Shown piece after piece: positions 35,544-36,620 of a DNA stretch of 52,858 nt. The notes under the pieces are model-generated. The model was not told the DNA's origin and made no database searches. It was given only the letters and a program-made list of their open reading frames with translations. The stretch is from Verrucomicrobiales bacterium (GTDB lineage Bacteria > Verrucomicrobiota > Verrucomicrobiia > Verrucomicrobiales > DEV007). Numbering within the stretch: the stretch's first letter is position 1; every line of letters starts with the position of its first letter. Location: assembly GCA_016795505.1 (NCBI GenBank), contig JAEUHH010000114.1:1-52858 (forward strand). The letters run 5' to 3'. Made by a program: the position numbers and the translations under genes.

Positions 35544-36620
35544 TCACTCACCCAGCCGGAAGTCGCCCCCATCTCTCAGCGCCGCCTCCACCGCCCGCCG
35601 GTAGGGCGAGGGCATGGCCACGGCGGGCAATTCCTCTGCGATATCGAACCAGCGGCGCTCGCCCGCCGATGAGACAGGGTCTGATCTCCGATCCAACCCG
35701 GTCGGATCTCCGATCCAACCCTGTACGATCAGATCCACCCGGTGGTGGGTGATGCCATATTTCAACTTCGTCAGCACCGGACCGGGGGGCTCTCCAGGAT
35801 CGGCCAGCGGCAGTCGCCACAGGCCTTGTCGCCGGCTGCCGGACTCCTGCTCCAGCAGGATGCGCCCGTCCCGGACGGCCAGCCAGGCCCGCTCGGTCAC
35901 GGCGACGGTGGCGCGGGCGGCCGATTTCACCGGCAGGCTGGCGGGCTCGCGGGTCGCGCAACAGTGGGCGACCGGGCAATCGACACAGGCGGGCGCGGCT
36001 TTGGTGCAGAGCCGCTGGCCCAACTCCATCAGGGCGGAATTGTAGGCTTTGGCCCGGCTTTCCGGCAGCAGGGCGTCGGCCCACTGCCAGAGTTGGTCCT
36101 TTGACGCCGGGGTATCGACCGGTTCGCGCAGGTCAAAGAGGCGGGCAAAGACGCGGGCGACATTGCCATCGACGATCGGCGCGGGACGGTCCCAGGCAAA
36201 GCTGAGCACGGCTCCGGCGGTGTAGCGGCCCACGCCCGGCAGGCTTTGCAGGCCCTCCAGGGTCTCGGGAAAACGGCCCCCGTGCTGCTCGACCACGGCG
36301 CGGGCGGCTTTTTGCAGGTTGCGGGCACGGTTGTAGTAGCCGAGGCCCTCCCAGTGCTTCAGCAGGTCGGCCTCGGGCGCGGCAGCGAGGGTGTGGACAT
36401 CGGGAAAGCGCTCCAGCCAGCGCTGGTAGTAGCCGCGGCCGAGCACAGTGGCGATCTGGGTCTGCTGGAGCATGATCTCCGAGACGAGGATGGCGTAGGG
36501 ATCGCTGGTCCGCCGCCACGGATAGTCGCGCCCCCCGGCATCGAACCACTCGATCAAGCTCCGCTGAAAGGCGGCGGGCAGGGCGAGCGGATCGACGGTC
36601 TGGGGGGGCTTTTCGGACAT
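35544..36620 (-). CDS. mutY: A/G-specific adenine glycosylase MutY, with in-frame repeat insertion
   Basis: The 358-aa protein has all MutY core features: catalytic E48 (VSEIMLQQTQ), helix-hairpin-helix LPGVGRYTAGA (128-138), D151 (IVDGNVAR), and a 4Fe-4S cluster motif with C205, C212, C215 and C221. A C-terminal NUDIX-like recognition domain (235-345) follows. The enzyme removes adenine mispaired with 8-oxoguanine. Inside the C-terminal domain, about 22 residues (299-320) between THHRVDLIV and GERRWFDI are encoded by three copies of the 22-bp palindrome (35668-35730), which keep the frame. The ATG at 36620 (MSEKPPQ) was chosen. It diverges from rnhC with 76 bp between starts. Confidence 0.93.
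   Translation of the reverse strand: MSEKPPQTVDPLALPAAFQRSLIEWFDAGGRDYPWRRTSDPYAILVSEIMLQQTQIATVLGRGYYQRWLERFPDVHTLAAAPEADLLKHWEGLGYYNRARNLQKAARAVVEQHGGRFPETLEGLQSLPGVGRYTAGAVLSFAWDRPAPIVDGNVARVFARLFDLREPVDTPASKDQLWQWADALLPESRAKAYNSALMELGQRLCTKAAPACVDCPVAHCCATREPASLPVKSAARATVAVTERAWLAVRDGRILLEQESGSRRQGLWRLPLADPGEPPGPVLTKLKYGITHHRVDLIVQGWIGDPTGLDRRSDPVSSAGERRWFDIAEELPAVAMPSPYRRAVEAALRDGGDFRLGE
35668..35730. repeat. Three units of the 22-bp palindromic family inside mutY
   Basis: Units start at 35668 (GATGAGACAGGGTCTGATC), 35690 (GATCCAACCCGGTCGGATC) and 35712 (GATCCAACCCTGTACGATC), separated by TCC. With a period of 22, three units make 66 bp, a multiple of three. The frame therefore stays open, and no stop codon arises in the translated strand. 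Confidence 0.92.

Follow-up and report, generated by a model that had tools for sequence, protein, structure and literature searches.

Short palindromic repeats of bacterial chromosomes are usually regarded as selfish or regulatory and as randomly placed. The small dispersed repeats of cyanobacteria are about 20-27 bp long and able to enter genes, the Rickettsia palindromic elements (RPEs) are longer than the elements described below, and MatS or Noc sites are dyad sites of dimeric chromosome-organising proteins, which are solitary and lie in part of the chromosome. REPs and BIMEs are bound by proteins according to PMC2817692, where a part for them in organising the chromosome is also suggested. 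REPs have also been described inside repair genes, several of them in Opitutus terrae, in PMC3733652, so that the presence of a palindromic repeat in such a gene is no novelty in itself.

The repeat in question lies in the C-terminal part of a mutY gene, in a window that is the whole stretch of DNA analysed (contig C47, taken in full, 52,858 bases). Judging from its MutY matches, the source is probably a Verrucomicrobiales-like bacterium. Gene positions were taken from our own hexamer gene caller, which starts mutY at 36620, compared to 36749 for the longest open reading frame. The gene and its repeat units are as follows:

35544..36620, minus strand: mutY, adenine DNA glycosylase (open reading frame and MutY fold match)
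35668..35686, unstranded: mutY unit 1, dyad GAT-GAG-AC-AGG-GT-CTG-ATC as read on the plus strand
35690..35708, unstranded: mutY unit 2, dyad GAT-CCA-AC-CCG-GT-CGG-ATC
35712..35730, unstranded: mutY unit 3, dyad GAT-CCA-AC-CCT-GT-ACG-ATC

The three 22-bp units lie within mutY, a minus-strand gene, exactly where the first-pass annotation had placed them, and the reading frame through them is open, with zero stops. The predicted product has the MutY fold (best structure match 8dwe_D, E 2.6e-27). The core residues had been called intact, and the alignment bears this out: the catalytic glutamate E46 and the Fe-S ligands C203, C210, C213, and C219 are invariant among 36 aligned MutYs, for which 35 of 80 matching loci were used and L085, having a stop, was dropped, and D149 is kept in at least 90% of them. 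The structural modelling that had been proposed was carried out with AlphaFold, and it places the insert in a low-confidence loop between two predicted strands, 291-299 and 320-324. The mean pLDDT of the model is 91.0, with averages of 69 for residues 301-310, 62 for residues 311-320, and 96 for the adjacent blocks. The earlier comparison with RPEs is apt, in that a palindromic DNA repeat is translated in frame as part of a loop of a core protein.

Two other expectations did not survive comparison with relatives. The insert had been said to add exactly 66 bp, but the MutY loop has 24 residues here against 19, 23, and 23 in three congeners, a net gain of 1-5 residues, and 10-20 residues in 32 other sequences with a readable loop (a table of 37 rows, from which the fragment L137 was dropped and in which L031 and L129 are the same sequence). 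The insert had also been expected to be missing in close relatives; instead, all three congeners, which were picked by a protein search blind to the repeats, have a version of two diverged units at that position of mutY. This version reads CAACAGGGT-nnn-GTC-nnn-GAC-nnn-ACCCTGTTG or a variant of it, in the same frame and with cores 22 bp apart, and the third unit is present in this species. Because the congeners hold a related version in the same place, the mutY insert predates the species, and a recent insertion within this species is ruled out by the two-unit versions. No unit was found at ≤1 mismatch in mutY of the other genera examined, which, together with the congener copies, implies that the element entered or arose in the genus ancestor. 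Word codons that keep the amino acid are shared at 8 of 8 positions between congeners G001 and G003 (gene-wide 0.59) and at just 4 of 6 between G001 and G002; this comparison is only suggestive of constraint at the DNA level. A sub-type with CCTCT/AGAGG cores, in which C has become G in the AC/GT word, often occupies both units of an element (C112:37073 and C20:50297, for example) and is also seen in the mutY copy of congener G002.

The mutY stretch is one copy of a dispersed dyad family carried at even intervals. Its unit is a 19-bp dyad, GAT-nnn-AC-cct/agg-GT-nnn-ATC, followed by a 3-bp spacer, and 224 elements with 458 units were found in the 1.924 Mb (21 contigs) that were read of a 6.55-Mb draft genome, a sample of 29% of one draft genome whose first-set contigs were partly chosen via pattern search matches. 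In the first 19 contigs (1.534 Mb, window included), a weight matrix search detected 173 elements with 352 units in all: 109 elements are two-unit and 31 three-unit, 30 are single units, 2 have four units, and 1 has five. The same matrix reversed gave 2 matches at equal threshold, compared to 697 strand matches; likewise, a one-unit pattern with ≤2 mismatches occurs at 811 places genome-wide (428 + 383 by strand) and, read backwards, at 0. Of 180 neighbour pairs less than 80 bp apart, 177 keep a distance of exactly 22 bp, and every combination of orientations occurs among them (++ 53, -+ 50, -- 49, and +- 25); in congener loci the cores are 22 apart in 88 of 91 distinct close pairs. Eight core pairs in the 19 contigs are 8 bp apart rather than 22. 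The words GAT, AC, GT, and ATC are nearly fixed, while the triplets between them are of several types, the left and right triplets not covarying. The consensus of 286 outer ends reads (T/A)TTCC|GAT and its mirror image, and the mutY copy is without these family ends, (T/A)TTCC..GGAA(T/A). Half-decayed copies are scarce, as pair scores are bimodal, with 204 local maxima at ≥30 and 14 between 5 and 30. Searches of phage and plasmid records with an 81-base query gave no family match at E 1e-5, and searches of the open-access literature, several of which were too broad to be telling, found no description of this family.

Besides mutY, the window holds the following members of the family, its multi-unit elements being centred at 3902, 8764, 26530, 35698 (mutY), and 46124:

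3883..3923, unstranded: two-unit element of the same family
8745..8785, unstranded: two-unit element, matched by elements at the corresponding position of congener loci L281 and L306
26500..26562, unstranded: three-unit element, third unit weak (score 14.9)
46105..46145, unstranded: two-unit element
52524..52542, unstranded: single unit

Other repeats are also present in the window. Two GC-rich tandem arrays at 44591-44715 have a period that is also 22 and a sequence different from that of the dyad family, and intergenic heptamer arrays of GGATCTT/GGATTTT (19 copies) and GACTGCT (8 copies) lie at 44149-44378. Inverted repeats at 52590-52858, TTAGCCGGTGGT..ACCACCGGCTAA and CATCCCTCCGGGATGC, are like those beside Y1 transposase genes elsewhere in the genome.

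The elements are evenly spaced along the chromosome. In the first 19 contigs, 154 distances have a mean of 8.5 kb and a coefficient of variation (CV) of 0.629, compared to 0.966 ± 0.072 when elements are placed uniformly, 1.18 ± 0.10 when they are placed by gap length, and 0.896 ± 0.065 when each gap receives one; none of 1000 replicates was as low under any of the three nulls. Two held-out contigs (C9 and C51), which were read afterwards as a test, gave 49 distances with a CV of 0.434, and again 0 of 1000 replicates were as low. When only multi-unit elements are taken, the 21 contigs together give a CV of 0.531, compared to 0.972 ± 0.07 by chance (the lowest of 2000 replicates was 0.774), and only 5 distances are below 2 kb, where 32 were expected. 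No fixed lattice period was shown: the best Rayleigh values rise little above the background (29.3, mean 17.1), and one distance does not correlate with the next (0.04); this small excess and the lack of correlation indicate repulsion between elements rather than a ruler. Weak elements hidden in the long gaps were also considered and were found in just 2 of 34 gaps above 12 kb. As an internal control, no other dispersed repeat is abundant enough, the commonest other intergenic 12-mers giving 0-7 distances. At 43.6 kb, the longest gap sampled is on C100; HipA-, Fic-, and DUF3987-type genes with low coding scores occupy its far end, which looks like acquired DNA. A stretch of C100 at ~255-276 kb (L173 and L174), with the same HipA/Fic/DUF3987-type content, is free of full elements and is possibly acquired DNA.

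The spacing runs through coding genes. The nearest-neighbour distance is 6475 bp for in-gene elements and 6508 bp for the others, and the median distance from an in-gene element to the nearest non-gene element is 6769 bp, compared to 3802 ± 826 bp for random positions, which were drawn uniformly and not restricted to genes (1 of 500 as high). By these two results, the in-gene copies, mutY included, belong to the spaced set. Of the first 173 elements, 110 are intergenic, 39 are within genes, 15 run over a gene end, and the remaining 9 are unclassed or at a contig end, whereas 83% of random positions fall inside genes; in the two later contigs, 34 of 51 elements are intergenic, 13 are in genes, and 4 are partial. 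The median distance from an element to a flanking stop-codon end is 32 bp, compared to 113 bp to a start end, and 29 of the 110 intergenic elements lie between divergent genes.

In-frame presence in conserved genes, a trait of RPEs, is found for 34 multi-unit elements inside predicted genes. The first-pass annotation had held that three units are needed to keep a frame; this rule is rejected because two-unit copies dominate within genes (31 of 34, with 3 of three units), and outside genes 118 of 155 multi-unit elements have two units and 33 have three. Pfam scans covered 20 of the 33 hosts other than mutY, and core enzymes of ordinary kinds are frequent among them, including ThiC, TsaD, a CysS-type tRNA synthetase, a Der-type GTPase, a proton-translocating oxidoreductase subunit, and a 2-oxoacid dehydrogenase E2. 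The E2 copy begins near residue 96, in the stretch that separates the lipoyl domain (3-75) from the E3-binding domain (120-155). The commonest in-gene frame, reading roughly (I/M)xQGxIxDxTLLDR, is used by 16 of 25 multi-unit elements of the first set. It is open in 152 of 154 strands of intergenic two-unit elements, compared to 88 and 87 for the other frames, and the bias (p 0.002 against one third) is not significant once stops are allowed for (p 0.11). In this frame, the AGG-then-CCT orientation is taken by 8 of 14 elements in genes and 23 of 154 intergenic strands (p 0.0003), which suggests selection on the peptide after arrival.

The family was found in a narrow group of genomes. A two-unit pattern with ≤3 mismatches, modelled on this genome and so undercounting other dialects, occurs at 806 places here, at 127, 38, and 116 in the three congeners, at 173 and 179 in two genomes of a second genus (g11), at 0-34 in 17 genomes of a third (g2), and at 0 or 1 in the rest of 95 genomes. 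A profile search of the congeners, in which 150 candidates were scored per genome, gave at least 139, 100, and 138 strand matches, and their dialect is GAY..RTC, compared to GAT..ATC here. With ≤2 mismatches, the two-unit pattern is absent from 385 of 386 genomes across the phylum, in a draw without other members of this family of bacteria, and the single match looks unrelated. As the repeats are found in only a few genera of one Verrucomicrobiales-like family, their origin could be traced.

Individual sites both persist and turn over. In all, 23 congener elements were anchored (21 distinct, because two pairs each represent one place in overlapping loci). For 10 of them (9 distinct), this genome has an element ≤43 bp from the predicted place, and for 13 (12 distinct) it has none within 250 bp; the 12 of 21 distinct elements without a counterpart indicate high turnover. 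The shared places persist in congeners with 55-86% protein identity. In four intergenic ortholog comparisons from three loci of this genome, differences affect 2 of 32 positions in the outer GA/TC words, 25 of 48 in the triplets, and 58 of 88 in the sequence outside (words versus triplets, Fisher p 1e-5), in a test that is partly ascertained, as presence of the core was a condition and the model that retrieved the congener loci includes the outer words. The pair C91/L246, which may be coding, was left out; with it, the values are 3/40, 28/60, and 68/110.

Dyad words with apparently unread triplets, locked phasing, and even spacing together point to sites for a dimeric DNA-binding protein. The reading that we favour, in which belief and doubt are evenly balanced, is that the mutY insert is one of the chromosome-wide binding sites for a putative dimeric protein that organises the chromosome. 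The fixed words (GAT, AC, the centre, GT, and ATC) would be read by the putative dimer and the triplets between them left unread, and, as 22 bp correspond to about two helical turns, dimers could occupy adjacent units on the same face of the DNA and bind cooperatively. The sites lie ~8 kb apart, mostly between genes and often just behind a stop codon, and those within genes are tolerated in loops or linkers, mostly in a frame almost free of stops. Their likely use is to organise or mark the chromosome at regular intervals; among possible purposes of the spacing, chromosome organisation is a guess that we hold to be the most likely. Somewhat more tentatively, the arrangement could be a spacing system, in which the putative protein needs paired dyads about every 8 kb and thereby keeps sites even in core genes such as mutY.

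A REP- or MITE-like mobile cassette of one to three units, whose target immunity would likewise yield even spacing and whose in-gene copies would be survivors in the stop-free frame, is unlikely but deserves the most serious consideration among the alternatives. Defined outer ends, the many lineage-specific places, the far higher copy number here than in the congeners, and the REPs known within repair genes from PMC3733652 are all expected of such a cassette. So is an excess of near-identical pairs: a neighbour that differs at no more than 3 positions exists for 33 of 109 two-unit elements, where block shuffling predicts 12.7, and two elements are identical, a hint of some copying. However, no target-site duplication signal was detected in 143 elements, where flank identity was within 0.06 of the shuffled value for lengths 3-10 and offsets 0-11. 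The arms are unpaired, triplets are free while words hold, decayed copies are scarce, and sites persist at the same place in diverged congeners; target immunity alone leaves the fixed words and free triplets at old sites unexplained. The RAYT-driven form of this explanation is unsupported, as the ends carry no tag and Y1 loci are not enriched: the genome has 17 Y1 transposase matches, and of 8 loci examined, 3 hold an element, compared to ~2.6 expected by density. Three Y1 loci (L327-L329) carry the TTAGCCGGTGGT-type repeat, and at one of them (L327, C20:9098-9436), the Y1-type match has one internal TAG and a five-unit array ~370 bp downstream.

A DNA uptake sequence, by which competent cells take up DNA with the motif and drive accumulates evenly spaced copies in species dialects, seems improbable. 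Uptake sequences are significantly evenly spaced and lie partly within genes, according to PMC1939737, and the congener dialect fits this scheme. The same source describes them as non-palindromic, in contrast to a paired dyad of ~41 bp locked at 22 bp. An RNA-level element, such as a terminator or mRNA hairpin at 3′ ends that is sometimes read through in genes, is very improbable: the proximity to stop-codon ends agrees with it, but the mixed unit orientations, the elements between divergent genes, and the absence of an Rfam match in the window do not, and the hairpin was set aside since the arm triplets do not covary. That the mutY stretch is a protein-level variable loop whose DNA is repetitive in appearance only is hardly conceivable, even with a loop length ranging over 10-24 residues, when the same units recur 458 times in the sequence read, mostly between genes.

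The dyad family combines regular distances, fixed words at old shared sites, and a spacing unbroken through coding genes. If a protein reads these sites, they offer a new and directly testable handle on how the chromosome is divided at a scale of ~8 kb, and a requirement of DNA architecture would shape the loops of core proteins. If they are mobile, an element of ~50 bp would show target immunity at kilobase range.

Compared with described systems, the family resembles REPs, BIMEs, and REPINs (with GTAG or CGTC tags and RAYT association) in its short palindromic units, high copy number, mostly intergenic positions near 3′ ends, doublets and arrays of mixed orientation, and occasional in-frame presence in repair genes. 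It differs from them in having no GTAG or CGTC tag at its ends, 22-bp locked units, no enrichment at Y1 loci, and even chromosomal spacing; and whereas REPs form hairpins, here the arm triplets show no covariation, although GAT/ATC and AC/GT could pair. With RPEs it shares palindromic DNA in frame in ordinary genes at tolerated places; to our knowledge, even spacing and 22-bp phasing are not features of RPEs. The likeness to the cyanobacterial repeats, in size and gene entry, is by description only. DUS/USS are similar in high copy number, even spacing, in-gene copies, and species dialects, but they are short and non-palindromic, compared to a phased dyad pair about every 8 kb here. Finally, like MatS and Noc sites, the units are dyads scattered over the chromosome, there for a dimeric protein and here for a putative one, and they differ from those sites in being paired at 22 bp on each of the 21 contigs read.
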